From positions 1 through 64,000 of the forward strand of contig DATJQV010000024.1 of assembly GCA_035505375.1 (NCBI GenBank): DNA of 64,000 bases, in the 5' to 3' direction. The DNA comes from a bacterium. Its GTDB lineage: Bacteria; Hydrothermota; Tepidihabitantia; Tepidihabitantales; Tepidihabitantaceae. A model generated the notes under the pieces. That model was given only the letters and a program-made list of their open reading frames with translations. It had not been told where the DNA came from and did no database searches. Positions 14,300 to 62,731 of this stretch are shown here, one piece after another. Positions within the stretch are counted from its first letter, which is position 1, and each line of letters begins with the position of its first letter. The position numbers were made by a program, and so were the translations under genes.

Positions 14300-14357
14300 G
14301 AAGCAAGTAGGCAGCAGACAGTAGGTAGTAGACAGTAGACGGTAGACAGTAGACAGG

Positions 14358-14385: not shown

Positions 14386-14732
14386 GCTTTCTGTGGAGGA
14401 GCTAGTGGGCTGGAGCTTCGGTGCGTCAATATCGAGCCCACTCGACCGTGTTAGCCTTCCATCGTACCGCACCTCTCACCGGGTCAGCGATTCTGTTCCT
14501 CTACTCGTACTGCCTGTTTCACACCATCGCATTCCTGCATCGGGACTCTGAACAACTCAGCGCTCAAGAGTTGGAGACTAATCTCCGACCAAGAACCGCG
14601 GTATTTCAGAGTTCTGAGCCGTTCATCCCGGACCGCACCTGACGTAATGTGAAGTGTGGCAGCGAGATGACGTAAGGTACTCAAATGTAAGACTATAGTC
14701 GATGTGACTCATGAATCAGGATAGCACCTACC

Positions 14733-15044
14733 GGGTCACTCCCCGAGTCACTCCCCCAGTCACTCCCCGAATGACTCCCCGAGTGACTCCCCGAGTGAGT
14801 CGGTGAGTGACTTACCCAGTGAACTGGTGGGTGAACCAGTGGGTCAGTCGGGGGATTAGTTACCGACTGAGCTGGGGATTCATCTACCGACTTACTTGCA
14901 GGATAACTTAGTGGTTGAGTCGGTAGGTGACCCTTGGGGTGAGTCTGGGGATGAATTGGTAGATGAGCCGCTGGGTGACCTGCCGATTTACTCGGCAGAT
15001 GAGTTGCCGGGTGAATTGCGGGGTGTACTATCGGGTGAGCTACC
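14733..15044. repeat. Array 1: 26 units of a degenerate 12-bp repeat in strict register
   Basis: Read in 12-base steps, units run GGGTCACTCCCC, GAGTCACTCCCC, CAGTCACTCCCC, GAATGACTCCCC, GAGTGACTCCCC, GAGTGAGTCGGT … GATTTACTCGGC, AGATGAGTTGCC, GGGTGAATTGCG. The approximate consensus is GRGTGAvTyrCC. Point changes are many but no insertion or deletion breaks the register over 312 bases. Stops occur in every forward frame, so it is not coding as it stands. It lies in the 1.17 kb gap 14300-15472, which holds no supported gene. Confidence 0.85.
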
Positions 15045-15472
15045 GGATGCTGGCGTATGTGCCATGCGGCGCAGCGTTCGGCGGTGCTTCAGTTGCGGTG
15101 AGAACAGATAGGTTGGACGATGCCTGCGCGACAGTGACACGAATCGCGAAGAACTGAGCAATGGCCTGAGCGGCGCAATATTGCCTTGCGGAGCCGAAAC
15201 GGGGATGGGGCCACAACGCGGGCGGGACGCGCAAGTCAGAAGCCAGGAGGCAAAAGTCAAAGGTCAAGATGCCGTGAGGAGGACGGAATCTCTGAATTCT
15301 CTCGGGAACTTGAGCCGAAGCGAGGACCGGTCCGCGGAGAACCTGAGAGGAACTGGGGCGGAGCTGTTCCCGGTTTGGCTTGCAGAGTTCCGTCGAGACT
15401 TTCCGTGGCTTCACATTCACAGGATTGGTTAGTCAGGGTTGACCCGCAGTGCAGGTATCGGGAGAATTAGAC

Positions 15473-34375: not shown

Positions 34376-34483
34376 CTATGGCGTTGGTGCCGAGGCGTCG
34401 AAGACCTCGGTGCGGATTCGGGCGAGGACGGCGGTGTCCAGCAGAACGCTGCTGTCTATGAGCAGGCGTGTTTCTTCCGCCAT
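34376..34483 (-). pseudogene. Deleted vapC toxin remnant
   Basis: The first 15 codons (MAEETRLLIDSSVLL) equal those of the intact vapC at 37287, then the frame jumps to DTAVLARIRTEVFDASA…, which matches DNA downstream of the intact vapC (36716-36780). About 470 bases of the PIN domain are missing, including all later catalytic acids, so no toxin can be made. The remnant still overlaps the antitoxin stop in the normal way. Confidence 0.85.
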
Positions 34484-34683
34484 GCCGCTATCGCGTGCTG
34501 CAGCTCAACCGATGTGAATTCGTCACGCATGTCACTCAATGCACCCCGCCAGTCGAGCTTCATCTTTCCAGCAGGTCGGGGGACACGCGTATCCCTGACG
34601 AATCGCGCAAAGTCCCTGACCTCTGTCTGCAATTCCTCCGGAAGTCCCTTTGTTACTTCGACCACTTCATCAAGCGTCTTCAT
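34456..34683 (-). CDS. VapB-like (DUF2281) antitoxin, orphaned copy
   Basis: 75 residues, nearly identical to the copy at 37260-37487 (MKTLDEVVEVTKGLPEELQ … DWRGALSDMRDEFTSVELQ). DUF2281 proteins are antitoxins of PIN-domain toxins. The partner toxin is destroyed, yet the antitoxin frame is intact; retention could protect against the second VapC. The start follows a run with no strong ribosome site. Confidence 0.8.
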   Translation of the reverse strand: MKTLDEVVEVTKGLPEELQTEVRDFARFVRDTRVPRPAGKMKLDWRGALSDMRDEFTSVELQHAIAAWRKKHACS

Positions 34684-36689: not shown

Positions 36690-36810
36690 TTACGCGGCGG
36701 AGAATCGGAGGACCTCAGGCGTTGGGGTAGAGGCGTCGAAGACATCGGTGCGGATTCGGGCGAGGACCGCGGAATCCAGACCGTGGTCGGGATGGGACGC
36801 GAAAGCGAGG

Positions 36811-37933: not shown

Positions 37934-39375
37934 AGAGAAACTTGCTGTGGCTGACCGCAGCCATGCTCTTGCCCGCTGCCGCACTCGGTCAGGGCTGGGT
38001 CGGGCAGCAAATGATCAATCGGCCCGACGGCGACACGTGCGAGCTAATGCCGGCCATTGCGTTCGACGCGGCAGGAGTCCCGTGGGTCGTCTGGGGTAGG
38101 AACTTGTCAGATACGACGTTGTTGTACTCCCGATGGGACGGCAGGCACTGGGCGCCCCAGAGTGGCGTCTGCGCCAACGCGCCCGGTGTTCACTGCGGGG
38201 TCGGCCCTTCGCTTTGCTTTGACAGTCGTGGCCGCGCCCGGGCGGCGTGGAGCAGCCAGAACAATGACAACTCCCTTGATGTGGGTTCCTCTTACTGGAC
38301 TGGCTCAGCATGGAGTCCGGAAGTACAGGTTGACACGCCCGACGCCGACTCAATGGACGTCACGCCCAAGATTGCCTCAGGCGGCGGACAGGTTTGGTGC
38401 GTCTGGAACCACGCCGAGACACAGGTGTCTCCGTATTCCGTCTACGCGAGTCGCTGGGACGACAGTACCGACCGCTGGGAAGGCGAGTACTGTGTCAACC
38501 CGCCAAACGGCAACAACAACTGGTGGTGCGATGTTGCGGTGGATTCCGGAGGAAAGCCACACGTGGTCTGGACAGAAACCGAGCATCTTGCCATCTACTA
38601 CAGCTTCTACGATGGTGCGCAATGGTCGGCGCCTTCGCTGGTGAACGACAGTAGTCGTGTGAGGGCTGTGGTTTGGCCGGCCCCGCGCATCGTCATAGAC
38701 CGCGAAGGCATCCTGCACGTGAGCTACACCGGCGTCCTCAACGGAGACTCTGCCAGCGACGAGTTCTACACTCGAAATGATGGCTCAGGATGGACTCCCT
38801 CGGTACGCGTCACCCAGGATCCGGTCAATAACTGCGAGGACGAGTATTCTGACATCGCGGCTGACAGGAGTGACAACGTGTGGATAGCCTTCGAGAGAGA
38901 TGGCGGCGGTTCGTACGCGGGCATCTACGCGGTTCACTTCGACGGCAAGTCGTGGTCAGGGGAACAGCGGCTGGACGATGACAGCGCGCACGGCGACGGC
39001 AGCGTGACGGTCGCGTTGGACCCGGCGGGGCTTCCGTGGGTCGCCTGGTGTGGGGTGACTTACAGCCAAGGTAACGACGATATCTACTGCAACCACTACT
39101 CGACTCCGCCAGCCATACACGAGACCAAGCACGGCGCGGCGACCCGCCTCCAGTCAGTTATCCGTGGGGTGCTGTGCGTTCCGGCATCGAGCGTGATGCG
39201 TGGAGCGTCTTGCGCCCTGCTCGACATCAGCGGCCGCCGTGTCCTCGACCTCCATCACGGCACGAATGACGTGCGGGCGCTGGCGCCCGGCGTGTACTTC
39301 GTCAGAGAGGGGCTAGGGACTAGGGGCGAGGGGCTAGGGAAGACGCGGAAGGTCGTGCTGACCGGTGGGCGGTAG
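37930..39375 (+). CDS. Secreted exo-sialidase-like propeller protein with sorting domain (copy 2)
   Basis: 481 residues with signal peptide LLWLTAAMLLPAAALGQGW and the same blade-like blocks (DSGGKPHVVWTETEHLA, DREGILHVSYTGVLNG, DPAGLPWVAWCGVT). The sorting domain reads ALLDISGRRVLDLH…ALAPGVYFVREGLG, followed by the same repeat-derived tail. It is more diverged from copy 1 in the N-terminal third (FDAAGVPWVVWGRN) than near the C-terminus, where long stretches are the same. Probably surface-exposed; the ligand is unknown. Confidence 0.82.
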   Translation: MKRNLLWLTAAMLLPAAALGQGWVGQQMINRPDGDTCELMPAIAFDAAGVPWVVWGRNLSDTTLLYSRWDGRHWAPQSGVCANAPGVHCGVGPSLCFDSRGRARAAWSSQNNDNSLDVGSSYWTGSAWSPEVQVDTPDADSMDVTPKIASGGGQVWCVWNHAETQVSPYSVYASRWDDSTDRWEGEYCVNPPNGNNNWWCDVAVDSGGKPHVVWTETEHLAIYYSFYDGAQWSAPSLVNDSSRVRAVVWPAPRIVIDREGILHVSYTGVLNGDSASDEFYTRNDGSGWTPSVRVTQDPVNNCEDEYSDIAADRSDNVWIAFERDGGGSYAGIYAVHFDGKSWSGEQRLDDDSAHGDGSVTVALDPAGLPWVAWCGVTYSQGNDDIYCNHYSTPPAIHETKHGAATRLQSVIRGVLCVPASSVMRGASCALLDISGRRVLDLHHGTNDVRALAPGVYFVREGLGTRGEGLGKTRKVVLTGGR

Positions 39376-39479: not shown

Positions 39480-39863
39480 GGTTGATGGCCAAGAGATGGG
39501 ATAAGTCCTTGGATTAGCGGCGGTTTGAGATGCTGGGCGAGTCGCCTTGGGGGTCGCCCCGGGAACGGTTCCCAGGGTGGTTCCGATGGCGGTTCGGCAC
39601 ATTACTTGGAGGGGGACTCTCGGAGAGACTTGGCGGGCGATGTTCAGGGTGACCTGTGCTGCGGTTTGGAGTGCGACCTGCACCATGACTCGGCTCGTGA
39701 TTGTCGCCATCTCCCGGACGGTGATTCGCGTCGTGACCCTCGGCGTCACTCGCGAGATGACCTGCACTGCTACTCGTGGGGTGATTCGCAGGGCGACTTG
39801 CAAGGCGATTCTCAGGGCCATTCGCGGGGCAAACCTCCGGGTGTCTGCTGTGGTTCGCGCGCT
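39480..39863. repeat. Array 2: about 32 units of a degenerate 12-bp repeat in strict register
   Basis: Units such as GGTGATTCGCGT, CGTGACCCTCGG, CGTCACTCGCGA, GATGACCTGCAC, GGTGATTCGCAG, GGCGACTTGCAA and GGCGATTCTCAG repeat every 12 bases, consensus about GGYGAYTYGSRG. No insertion or deletion breaks the register from 39540 to 39863; the first five units (39480-39539) are weaker. Both strands are open across it, giving four-residue periodic peptides, but no start signals, so it is probably not coding. Reverse-complement units resemble array 1 (CGAGTGACGCCG versus CGAGTGACTCCC). Confidence 0.85.
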
Positions 39864-49886: not shown

Positions 49887-50114
49887 CCCGACTGCTCCAG
49901 CTTCGTTTCTAGGGCTGCCGCGCACCGCGGCCTGACCATTGGAACGACCCAGAATCAAGCTCAAGTGAGACAGTTAGTGGCCGAGATCCGCGTCTTGGCT
50001 GCAATGGCGATAAAAGAACTGTGTCTAGTGCACAACGAGTCAGGCCTAAGTACTGCATAATAGGCATAATACGAAGCTGGGCGCAGCGTTCGTGTTAGCG
50101 TCTGGGAGATAATA

Positions 50115-50330
50115 GGGGAGACCGTCCCGGGGACGGTCCAGGGGACGGTCTGGTAGACCGTCCCAGCGTGGGTCTTGGATATGGTCTATCGGGTGGTATC
50201 AGTGGTCGTTTGTGGGGCGAGCCGACAGATGGTCACGTAGGTTGTCTACGCGACCATGGCCGCAGTCGTCTGCGGGATAGTTCGGACGATTGTGAGGCAG
50301 TTCGTCTGCGGGTAGGTCTCACGGGTGGTG
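50115..50330. repeat. Array 3: 18 units of a degenerate 12-bp repeat in strict register
   Basis: Units include GGGGAGACCGTC, CCGGGGACGGTC, CAGGGGACGGTC, TGGTAGACCGTC, CCAGCGTGGGTC, TTGGATATGGTC … CGACAGATGGTC, ACGTAGGTTGTC, GCCGCAGTCGTC, TGCGGGTAGGTC. Most end in GTC. No insertion or deletion breaks the register. It lies in the 758-base gap 49887-50644, which otherwise holds no supported gene. Confidence 0.8.
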
Positions 50331-50598
50331 TGCAGGCTCATTCCCCATACCTTCTCCTGATTCGTTAGCTGAGTGAACTGGCAGTTGGTCGCGGCGATGG
50401 TATGCCAGATGGACACAGGGATGCTGGCGCGTGCACCTGTTCCCGGGAAAGCTCAGGGACCGGCCTTGGATGAATGCCGCCTACCGGCTGAGTTCCGGAC
50501 AGAAGGGCAATCCGCGGCTGTGACACGAAGGTATTGGCCAAGATTCGCTCGGACGTCTTCGACCTCGCCGCGCCGAGGCATTGGTGGCTCAGAAGTGA

Positions 50599-58301: not shown

Positions 58302-59485
58302 TTGAATCTGTCTTCCGGCGGCAGCACGTACTTGATGTCGAGATGGGGCGCATCGGCGCCGCGGTCGGGTATCTGGAATCGGAAGAGCGCCGACCATTCC
58401 GGTGCGGCCGTCAGCACCAGCCCGAAGTTGTGGAGGGTGTCGGAATGGCTGGTCCAGATTTGTACCATCGAGCGTATGTCAATAGTGACCGTTGAGTCGC
58501 TGTCCGCCGGCACGATGTACGAGGAGGCGGCGCTCGGCACGCTCTCGTACCTCGCGCCTGCTCCCCACTGGCCGAATGACTGGGTCAGGCGCGAAGCGCC
58601 GAGGATAATGGTGTCGGTGCGGCGATACAGGGTCATCGGGCGAAACTTCAGTTCGGCACTGGCAATTGTGGCCTGGGGAGGGATGGAGTCGATGTTGAAC
58701 GTCAGCCAGGTGCGGTACGCTACTCCCGAGCCGACCAGCAGGTCGCCGGGCTCCGACTGTGTGGCGATGGTGTCAATCAGGCTGGCGTCGCCGACGTCGT
58801 TGACGATGCGCTGCGTCTGCTTGCCGTTGCTGGTATAGGTGATGCGCAGCCGCGGCGAGGTGGCACTGGTAGTGCTCACGCCGGCGTGGATGGCCACGAT
58901 GCCCGTGTCTTCCGGGAAAAGAATGACGCCGCAGGTGCGGATGGTGGCGCGGCGAGCCGAGTCCAGCCCCGCGTATTTCATGTCGATCATGGCGCTGTCC
59001 CCGGTTATCGTGCCGCTCGCCAGCGTATCAGGCAGGAAGCTGCCGCCCGGGTTCAGCCAATGGTCGCTCGAATCGGCCATCTGCCACGAGACGCCGGATT
59101 CCAGCCACGCCAGGGAGCAGGGCCGGCAGATGAAGTTCATCCGGGCCAGCGTGTCGACCGGATGCAGAACGAGCTGACAGGAAGTGATTGAGTCGAGATT
59201 CATCGTATCCGGTATCGAGAAGAGCATCACGATCCGCGACTGGTAGGAGGCATCGCGGCCGAGGTAGAGCAGGCTGGAGCCGCCGAGCGGGACGTAGCGC
59301 ATGTAGCTGGCGGTCGAATCCGGAAGCAGCGTCGTGTCCGAGGCACCGCTTACGCGGTTACTGAGCTGGTCGTAGCCGACCGGTCGGGTATTGCAGCCGA
59401 TGAGTGCAAGGGTCAAGATGCAAAGCGCGACGTGCAAGACAGGGACCTTTAGGGTATCTTGAATCTTGCATCTTGAAACGTGCAT
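58298..59485 (-). CDS. Lipoprotein with DNRLRE-like domain
   Basis: 395 residues. Lipobox LALIGCNTR. The body (SRIVMLFSIPDTMNLDSITS … CQLVLHPVDTL; WLTFNIDSIPPQATIASAEL … KFRPMTLYRR) resembles DNRLRE-type beta-sandwich domains. The N-terminus before the lipobox (HVSRCKIQDTLKVPVLHVAL) is translated from GATGCAAGATTCAAGAT repeat DNA. It overlaps the following outer-membrane gene by four bases, so both are one operon; they may work together at the outer membrane. The exact role is unknown. Confidence 0.75.
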   Translation of the reverse strand: MHVSRCKIQDTLKVPVLHVALCILTLALIGCNTRPVGYDQLSNRVSGASDTTLLPDSTASYMRYVPLGGSSLLYLGRDASYQSRIVMLFSIPDTMNLDSITSCQLVLHPVDTLARMNFICRPCSLAWLESGVSWQMADSSDHWLNPGGSFLPDTLASGTITGDSAMIDMKYAGLDSARRATIRTCGVILFPEDTGIVAIHAGVSTTSATSPRLRITYTSNGKQTQRIVNDVGDASLIDTIATQSEPGDLLVGSGVAYRTWLTFNIDSIPPQATIASAELKFRPMTLYRRTDTIILGASRLTQSFGQWGAGARYESVPSAASSYIVPADSDSTVTIDIRSMVQIWTSHSDTLHNFGLVLTAAPEWSALFRFQIPDRGADAPHLDIKYVLPPEDRFK

Positions 59486-59495
59486 CTTGAATCTC

Positions 59496-60827: not shown

Positions 60828-60849
60828 GACGAGGACGGCCGAGGCGTCA

Positions 60850-60905
60850 GATGTGAGATGTAAGAAGTAAGATGCAAGATGAAAGATGTAAGATGGAATG
60901 TAATA
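60850..60905. repeat. AAGATG-type word repeats downstream of argS
   Basis: GTGAGATGTAAGAAGTAAGA, GCAAGATGAAAGATGTAAGA-type words. They fill the gap between rpmF and argS. Confidence 0.6.
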
Positions 60906-60964: not shown

Positions 60965-62731
60965 CTACATCCGGTCAGTGACTTCGATGCCGAGCAGGGC
61001 GAGGCCGGTCGCAATGACCTTGCCCGTCATCTCTACAAGGTACAGCCGCGCGCCGCGGAGCTCGGGAGTTTCGGCCTTGAGCACCGGCGCCTTGTCATAG
61101 AAGGCCGAGAAGTCGCGGGCGAGACGGTAGATGCGTCCGGCAATGCGATGCGGCTCATACGACTCGGCCGCAGCGACGATGGCATCCGGAAACCGGGCGA
61201 TGGATTTCAAGAGGGCCAGTTCTTCAGGCAGGGCAAAGGATGAAGGATGAGGGATGAAGGATGAAGCGGAGAAATCCGGAGCCTTACGGAGGATTGAGCG
61301 CGTGCGGGTGTACGCGTACTGGAGATAGGGAGCGGAGTCGCCGTCGAGCGCGAGCATCCGGTTCCAGTCGAATACCACCTCTTTGATGCGGCTCTGGGAA
61401 AGGTCGGCGTACTTGATGGCACCGATGCCGACGATGCGGCTGATTCGCGCCTTCTCTTCCGGCGGAATGTCGCGGTCCTGCAGCACGGCCTCGGCCCGGC
61501 GTACTGCCTCCGCAATCACGTCTTCAAGGAATACTACCCGGCCCTCGCGCGTTGACATCCTGCCTTCGGGCAGCCGGACCAGTCCGAACGTGACGTGGAT
61601 GCAGGGGACAGTGATGCCCAGCTTCGTGAGCGCCGCGCTGAACTGGCGGAAGTAGAGCTCCTGCTCCTTACCGACGACGTAGAGCATCTTCTCCGGGTGC
61701 CAGCGTTCGAGACGGTATTCGGCGGTGGCAATCTCCCGCGTCGCGTAGAGGCTGGTGCCGTCCGATTTCTGGAGGATGAGCGGTACCTCGATCCCGGCGT
61801 CGTCGAGGGGCAGGATGACCACGGTTTCGTCCGGGCCGACTTCTTCCCCGCCCGTAGCCATGGCGGTCGCAGGCTTCTCGCGCCGGGCCACGCCCGAATC
61901 GAGAGCGCGGCTGATGACGCCGCTCAGGCGGTCCTCGTACGAGCTCTCTCCGCGCAGCGAGTCGAACTTCACCCCCAGCAGGTCGTAGATCCGGCCGAAC
62001 TCGGCGGTGCTGAAGTTGACGAAGCGCTGCCAGAGCGACCGGGCCTGCTCGTCCCCGGTTTCGAGCCGGCGGAACCAGTCCCGCGCTTCGAGTTCGAGGT
62101 CTGCGTTCTTCTTTGCCTCGTCGTGGAACCGGACGTAGAGGGCAAGCAGGTGCGCGGTCGGATTGCGTTCCAGTTCCGCTTCGCTGCCCCAGCGATTGAA
62201 CGCGCACAGCAGCTTGCCGAACTGGGTTCCCCAATCGCCCAAGTGGTTGTCGCCGACGACCTGATACCCGAGGTAGCTCAGAATGTTGTGCAGGGCCTGG
62301 CCGATGATGGTCGAGCGGAGATGGCCGACGGAAAACGGCTTGGCTATGTTCGGGGATGAGTAGTCGATGACGATCGAGCGGCCCGCGCCGGCATCGGAAC
62401 TGCCGTACCGGATCGGGTCACGGCTGAAGTCGGCGATGACTTCCCGCGCGAATCTCGCCCGGTCGAAGGTCATGTTCAGGTAACCCTTGAGCGCCGCTGC
62501 CGACGTGAATCGTGTTCCTTCGAGCCGGACCGACGCGGCCAGTCGTTCAGCCAGGGCCTGCGAATTCTCACCGCGCTCTTTGGCGATACGGAAGAGAGGA
62601 ACTGCCAGGTCGGCGCCGATGCCACCTTCGACGTCGCGTATCTCGGTCGGGCTGATAGCTACGCCCTGTGCCGCCAGAATGCCGACCAATTCGTCGCGGC
62701 AGCGGGTCAGGAAGTAGCTGCTGTCAGGCAT
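60965..62731 (-). CDS. argS: Arginyl-tRNA synthetase
   Basis: 588 residues. Charges tRNA-Arg with arginine. HIGH-like motif SSPNIAKPFSVGHLRSTIIG, then VVGDNHLGDWGTQFGKLL, the class I ILQKSDGTSLYATREIATA and the DALR C-terminal domain (YRLARDFSAFYDKAPVL … ending GIEVTDRM). The N-terminal Add-1 domain is present. Between the catalytic core and the C-terminal domain the text SASSFIPHPSSFALP is encoded by an AAGGATGAAGGATGA-type repeat (61234-61265). The start ATG 62731 overlaps the macro-domain stop, so coupling is likely. Confidence 0.96.
   Translation of the reverse strand: MPDSSYFLTRCRDELVGILAAQGVAISPTEIRDVEGGIGADLAVPLFRIAKERGENSQALAERLAASVRLEGTRFTSAAALKGYLNMTFDRARFAREVIADFSRDPIRYGSSDAGAGRSIVIDYSSPNIAKPFSVGHLRSTIIGQALHNILSYLGYQVVGDNHLGDWGTQFGKLLCAFNRWGSEAELERNPTAHLLALYVRFHDEAKKNADLELEARDWFRRLETGDEQARSLWQRFVNFSTAEFGRIYDLLGVKFDSLRGESSYEDRLSGVISRALDSGVARREKPATAMATGGEEVGPDETVVILPLDDAGIEVPLILQKSDGTSLYATREIATAEYRLERWHPEKMLYVVGKEQELYFRQFSAALTKLGITVPCIHVTFGLVRLPEGRMSTREGRVVFLEDVIAEAVRRAEAVLQDRDIPPEEKARISRIVGIGAIKYADLSQSRIKEVVFDWNRMLALDGDSAPYLQYAYTRTRSILRKAPDFSASSFIPHPSSFALPEELALLKSIARFPDAIVAAAESYEPHRIAGRIYRLARDFSAFYDKAPVLKAETPELRGARLYLVEMTGKVIATGLALLGIEVTDRM
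61234..61265 (-). repeat. Word repeat in frame within argS
   Basis: The plus strand reads GATGAAGGATGAGGGATGAA; on the coding strand this gives SSFIPHPSSF. Similar words lie between genes at 34800-34895 and 37603-37700. Confidence 0.75.

Follow-up and report, generated by a model that had tools for sequence, protein, structure and literature searches.

The window, by which we mean the whole 64,000-nucleotide stretch analysed here, contains three arrays of 12-bp units together with remnants of genes that encode a small coat-like protein (Table 1). Array 1 is the strongest period-12 signal within it. A sliding scan gave a z of 40.7 at this position, compared to a mean of 4.1 and an SD of 3.0 over the 5257 other positions, and the period-12 G statistic reached 368, whereas 2000 mononucleotide shuffles averaged 34.7 and never exceeded 74. 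The original prediction of 26 consecutive 12-bp units with no insertion or deletion proved exact for the core of the array. Realignment by a period-12 HMM that permits slips placed 0 slips across it, both in a pooled fit (14726 to 15049, 27 units) and when the model was fitted to this locus alone (14711 to 15049, 28.25 units).

The units of array 1 vary strongly, as had been noticed before, and agree on average at 6.3 of 12 letters; the most similar units lie on the gene side (low coordinates), where they are nearly identical. Absent from the earlier description is an invariant T, found in 26 of 26 units, followed two bases further by an A in 25 of 26. This T-S-A motif is held in phase, and the consensus of the array is palindromic about one base. 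Array 1 is not a decaying satellite. Nor is it likely to be an assembly artefact, because two other full-length copies exist in the genome and arrays recur in other genomes. All sequences used are draft assemblies split into many contigs, and those that are named derive from metagenomes.

Table 1. Period-12 arrays and coat-like gene remnants of the window
Feature	Position	Strand	Description
Array 1	14711..15049, core 14733-15044	.	26 core units, 0 phase slips
Spacer between array 1 and gene remnant	14492..14732	-	Reads away from array 1
Coat-like gene, N-terminus remnant	14450..14491	-	tblastn weak, E 0.008
Coat-like gene, C-terminal fragment	34379..34498	-	HMM E 1.8e-4; tblastn E 1.6e-9
Coat-like gene, C-terminal fragment	36717..36788	-	HMM E 1.6e-4; tblastn E 2.3e-8
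Array 2	39541..39846	.	25.5 in-phase 12-bp units; symmetry not significant (p 0.41)
Array 3	50099..50423	.	27.1 in-phase 12-bp units; GAC-S-GTC-like palindromic motif
Coat-like gene, C-terminus remnant	50498..50578	+	HMM E 5e-6; tblastn E 8e-9

Array 1 has lost its own gene, of which a truncated remnant without an intact start is left, and intact copies of the gene are present elsewhere in the genome. The DNA similarity of this remnant to the C81 copy extends to 14437. Within the spacer, the place of the -35 box (14653-14648) lies 84 bp from the first dyad at 14737, as in relatives; read off the sequence, the -35 box-like element is weak and the -10 box degraded. From the same dyad to 14491, the site of the lost start codon, is 246 bp, which is 6 mod 12 and thus the register of relatives. 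The closest copy that keeps a gene of full length is L010, where the distances used to place the -35 box are 84 bp and 162 bp. The C-terminus remnant on the forward strand is directly downstream of array 3, in the usual order of array, then gene.

The window also has tandem arrays of 7-bp units, with unrelated unit sequences, at 14306-14356, 39308-39339, 59456-59494, 60849-60895 and 61236-61266, one of which shares the intergenic region of array 1.

The array family in the genome and its relatives

A blastn search of the genome with array 1 gave 25 matches, including two of almost full length (85% and 83%). The slip-permitting HMM found arrays with 0 slips at 15/15 loci of the genome, where 14 arrays have 19-29 units and the remaining one is truncated at 7.4 units; across the genome and its relatives, the typical size is mostly 20-30 units. 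When each locus was fitted separately, 0 slips were required in 38 of 39 fits, which represent 36 distinct loci (L087, L089 and L115 duplicate L074, L012 and L075). The pooled array consensus, CCGAGTGACTCG, is self-complementary about two centres. Arrays with T-S-A every 12 bases occur in all six genomes of the genus, their unit sequences being otherwise unrelated. A backwards control pattern also matches in five of the six (104/133 in the window's own genome and 0/42 in one relative), in part because the arrays are palindromic.

Upstream of gene copies that fall outside the TSA class, the same position is taken by arrays with different motifs. By column permutation (p 0.05 or less), palindromic symmetry is present in the GAC-S-GTC-like arrays of L122, L123 and window array 3, and also in L120 and L093; the test gave no significant dyad symmetry in a class of six arrays (L117-119, L128, L129 and L135; p 0.21-0.87). 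Different array motifs seem to accompany different branches of the protein family encoded downstream. Array copies differ from each other in unit number by whole units; a copying mechanism with a 12-base template had been suggested for array 1, but ordinary unit duplication explains this mode of growth. Array and gene are duplicated together, and the copied segment frequently ends near the stop codon of the gene.

Solo arrays are found at an orthologous locus in two species (L020 1500-1836 and L054 1406-1706), with no detectable coat-like gene nearby. L070, L071 and L121 possess a second period-12 array of different motif, ~700-740 bp upstream of the gene, as if two addresses were combined in one control region. 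In L070, an IS200-like (Y1) transposase gene (378-1061, Y1_Tnp), of the type that adjoins palindromic repeats in REP/RAYT elements, lies near one array. In the pairs L021/L028 and L012/L076, arrays that are themselves unalignable adjoin common flanking DNA across genera or species.

The neighbouring coat-like protein family

Across families and species, the flanks of the arrays are alike on one side, and this similar flank encodes a protein of ~123 residues that is read away from the array. A flank gene on the strand on which the arrays are listed was also considered and rejected, as those ORFs are antisense. The protein family is present in 28 of 61 related genomes searched, comprising 28/28 of the same order and 0/33 outside it, with 2-42 copies each; its named hosts are bacteria of the candidate division WOR-3. 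Five of the six genomes of the genus carry 29-42 copies, and the remaining one carries 12. When 147 genomes of the phylum were searched with a profile, 29 had the family, namely the same 28 and G093. The latter, from outside the order, has a single family member (E 5e-10), perhaps owing to transfer or a binning error.

Loci collected by array search are biased towards having arrays, a bias avoided by counting 20 loci fetched by the gene alone. Ten of these have an upstream period-12 array, and the other ten (L124-L127, L130-L134 and L136) are without exception members of a single subfamily. In other genera, the best copies mostly lack an array upstream. We scanned seven ORFs upstream of the gene at five array-less loci: five of them, one per locus, match sigma-70 region 2 or 4 and are of the ECF type, one match being weak (E 0.0017), and the two others, both short, gave no match. 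At L102, L110, L113, L134 and L136, the coat-like genes stand in adjacent pairs.

A profile built from 43 family members, compared with all PDB sequences, gave seven matches at E<=1, and all seven are coat proteins of archaeal filamentous viruses, the best E values being 8.2e-6 and 1.2e-5 in a range extending to 0.28. Sulf_coat_C (PF12193), described in Pfam as a coat-protein family of Sulfolobus viruses, was the top match, below the cut-off, of two single queries. It matches 33 of the 43 members at E<=0.1; one copy in the window's genome exceeds the Pfam cut-off, compared to 0 of 14 control genomes. Scans of PHROGs and NCBIfam with the protein returned no credible match, two protein queries against viral contigs found no relative, and a search for DNA similarity to phages found none.

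The AlphaFold2 model of the protein (pLDDT 93.8) is all-helical with long helices. Foldseek ranked coat proteins of archaeal filamentous viruses at positions 1-10 for this model, with a best E of 0.0028, none below 0.001, and a probability of 1.00. In VIA, seven coat proteins had Z values of 14.1, 13.2, 12.4, 12.1, 10.8, 9.5 and 9.3, compared to 7.0 for the first unrelated chain, a clear gap in a measure that gives high values by chance in helical folds; among the families listed, no other stood above the coat proteins. A fold search of BFVD gave E values of 0.05 or worse, with the SIRV coat protein first. The model of the array-less subfamily is weaker (pLDDT 74), and the same coat proteins occupy ranks 1-9. 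Sequence profile and predicted fold together place the family with the SIRV2-type coat proteins (Adnaviria MCP). As a virus, the family does not belong to Adnaviria: two queries recovered no viral-contig relative, all 28 genomes of the order have dispersed copies, and array-less copies follow ECF sigma-factor genes.

Constraint on the arrays and register to the start codon

We compared substitution rates along the unit in 15 homologous array pairs. The rates are lowest at p6 and p8, the T and the A (0.057 and 0.056), which change about 3 to 4 times slower than the mean of the other unit positions, these spanning 0.13-0.32. About p7 the rates are mirror-like, with 0.128/0.143 at p4/p10, 0.205/0.193 at p2/p12 and 0.315/0.262 at p3/p11; p5/p9 are less symmetric (0.14/0.27).

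Nine pairs of upstream regions were readable (460-1040 bp, 10-35% substitutions), and 10 of their 14 gap events, some of them common to several pairs, are 12, 24, 36 or 48 bp long. Of the remaining four, three (1, 1 and 7 bp) lie in a single pair, towards its promoter end, and the fourth, of 1 bp, is in another pair. In the spacers of 14 pairs, there are three gaps in 3332 sites with 1004 substitutions, and all three are multiples of 12. The arrays of 14 pairs have 15 gaps, nine of which are multiples of 12 and the other six mostly at array ends; as the counts from the 15-pair array set include some terminal gaps, the nine-pair upstream count is preferred. Two L121 pairs, 50% divergent and unreliably aligned, have 20 gaps and no multiple of 12. 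In the solo array L020/L054, the T-S-A columns have changed at 11 of 85 sites, compared to 85 of 252 in the other columns; its sole gap inside the array is 12 bp, and those outside are 1, 12, 1 and 14 bp. Selection on spacing, which had been suggested from the fixed period of array 1, is well supported by the indels of the readable pairs, mostly multiples of 12, and by the dyad-symmetric substitution rates.

The spacer of most TSA-class loci has a predicted sigma-70-like promoter, whose call exceeds all 60 shuffles in only part of the loci (e.g. L074, L031 and L090, and not L010, L012, L014, L018, L083 and L091). In 14 of 18 distinct TSA rows, 84 or 96 bp separate the last dyad from the -35 box, the distances in the other four being 1, 16, 253 and 82. 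Thirteen distinct TSA loci from four genomes have a dyad-to-start-codon distance of 6 mod 12, with spacers of 115-273 bp; in L031, L083 and L091 it is 4 mod 12, and L017, L080, L118 and others differ. Most TSA-class elements thus keep the 12-bp register across the promoter as far as the start codon. Part of this shared register is accounted for by common ancestry and the small number of indels since.

Readings of the arrays and comparison with known systems

Taken from sequence comparison and a modelled fold, the reading we favour as probable makes the array a DNA lattice that acts in cis and serves a bacterial relative of the coats of archaeal filamentous viruses. The original suggestion of a protein bound every 12 bases is well supported to the extent that the neighbouring family resembles a coat holding 12 bp per dimer. 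Each 12-bp unit would be occupied by a coat-like homodimer whose two-fold axis passes through the base at the centre of T-S-A, and about 25 dimers would stand side by side on an array. The filament might then extend 12 bp at a time across the promoter and thereby control the gene, most simply by repression when the protein is abundant. With array and promoter coated, the gene would be self-limiting. As the paralogues seem to differ in array motif, each may have its own address; array 1, its own gene lost, would be bound by paralogues in trans if it is still used. For the sigma-linked copies, a protective role is possible by analogy with the spore proteins that hold A-form DNA. Counted against the array-coat reading are the ten array-less copies among the 20 gene-fetched loci, the arrays that occur with no gene nearby and the six-array class with no significant dyad symmetry.

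We advance more tentatively, at somewhat less than even chances, a wider proposal: the coat-like family may be a sequence-addressed chromatin, with paralogue-specific palindromic lattices, spreading in 12-bp steps, a virus-like A-form filament over hundreds of base pairs of chromosome with the promoter among them and, across the whole region, non-12 indels forbidden. If true, it would be a cellular counterpart of the viral nucleocapsid with many orthogonal addresses per cell. The lattice reading itself would tie a puzzling repeat to a bacterial family with the coat fold of archaeal filamentous viruses, and it predicts footprints that recur every 12 bp, each centred on the base that separates T from A. 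Were the arrays bound as proposed, bacterial chromosomes would have a sequence-specific, register-locked DNA coating, and the relation of the viral coat fold to cellular DNA-binding proteins, as well as the origin of the coat, would become testable.

The main rival keeps the contact of a dimer with 12 bp unchanged and makes the benefit the element's own: the arrays would be signals for addressing or packaging a minimal selfish element, virus-like and made up of an array plus a coat gene, that spreads and decays. The joint duplication of array and gene, often ending near the stop codon, is in its favour, as are the copy numbers in the genus, 29-42 in five of six genomes and 12 in the other, many copies being truncated, those of the window included. 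We nevertheless regard it as unlikely, since occurrence in each of the 28 genomes examined from the order suggests a resident function, ECF sigma-factor genes precede the array-less copies, and a solo array is constrained at an orthologous site. Moreover, the two queries of viral contigs returned no relatives, and an unsystematic search found no replication or transposition gene common to the elements.

It is still less likely that another DNA-binding protein, such as a nucleoid protein or a repressor, reads the 12-bp lattice instead of the coat-like neighbour. Such a protein would account for solo arrays with no nearby family gene, as in L020/L054, and for the missing array at half of the gene-fetched copies. 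However, the arrays stand at set distances upstream of this one coat-like family, their motifs seem to differ with the family branch, and the footprint of the coat fold equals the 12-bp period.

A neutral minisatellite, gaining and losing entire units and young enough to be free of indels, would fit the whole-unit differences between copies, and the near identity of the gene-side units looks like recent growth. We consider this very improbable: a unit agreement as low as that of array 1 marks an old array, the T and the A evolve at a fraction of the rate of their neighbours, and spacers with 30% substitutions hold only three gaps, all multiples of 12. Both substitutions and indels are constrained, in the solo array as well.

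That the palindromic arrays act by folding back on themselves, as RNA or single-stranded DNA, has scant plausibility in spite of their self-complementary consensus. The real unit order beat all 40 permutations in only one of 12 tests (six arrays, both strands), an Rfam scan gave no match at E<=1, and the promoter calls put the arrays upstream of transcription. The decayed coding of a four-residue repeat, raised in the original prediction, was not borne out and deserves almost no credence: one frame is open over many units in most arrays and reads like P-S-D-L/S, but in each of the three copies of the window's family the frame that is most open is interrupted by stops, both within the array and immediately ahead of it, six-frame translation of all arrays and 15 spacers left no frame open throughout, the readable pairs show indels of 12, 24, 36 and 48 bp and none of 3, 6 or 9, and the relevant frames make the slowest position, p6, a third codon position, or have the second position p9 changing faster than the third, p10.

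Among known systems, the fixed-length tandem units resemble bacterial short tandem repeats and minisatellites, the difference being the constraint that acts here on spacing and on two bases of each unit. Operator or iteron arrays to which the product of a neighbouring gene binds, such as parC/ParR and tubC/TubR, combine short direct repeats near the gene of a small DNA-binding protein with a cooperative filament on the DNA; here too, many short direct repeats lie near a small-protein gene. Unlike in these systems, there are 20-30 units in strict register to the promoter and start codon (TSA class), the predicted fold is that of a viral coat, and the elements exist as dozens of paralogues. ParR has a ribbon-helix-helix fold, and a partition site of the ParR/parC type was rejected, the predicted fold being all-helical and coat-like, not ribbon-helix-helix.

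SspC-type spore proteins protect DNA and hold it in A-form (PMC5867849). As cellular proteins holding A-form DNA, they offer a possible functional parallel. To our knowledge, they are not known to need repeat arrays.

The closest likeness is to the Adnaviria coats. In two structural studies, each coat dimer of SIRV2, AFV1 and SFV1 holds 12 bp of A-form DNA (PMC5517147, PMC6105669): AFV1 and SIRV2 are fitted best with 12 bp per repeat, and the two-fold axis of the SIRV2 dimer passes through that of the DNA (PMC5517147), and SFV1 has 12 bp per asymmetric unit (PMC6105669). A search of open-licence literature found no paper on bacterial relatives of this fold. The family resembles the coats of SIRV2, SSRV1, AFV1 and SFV1 in profile and predicted fold over the whole ~120 residues, and the array period equals their 12 bp per dimer. 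The adjacent coat-like gene pairs recall the coats of AFV1 and SFV1, which are heterodimers. A rudivirus genome that we checked has no period-12 arrays; therefore, viral coats need no such sequence. Unlike the viral coats, the family has 2-42 dispersed copies in WOR-3 bacteria, many with a sequence-specific 12-bp lattice upstream. A 12-bp period with dyad symmetry is what a coat dimer would need if it read sequence.
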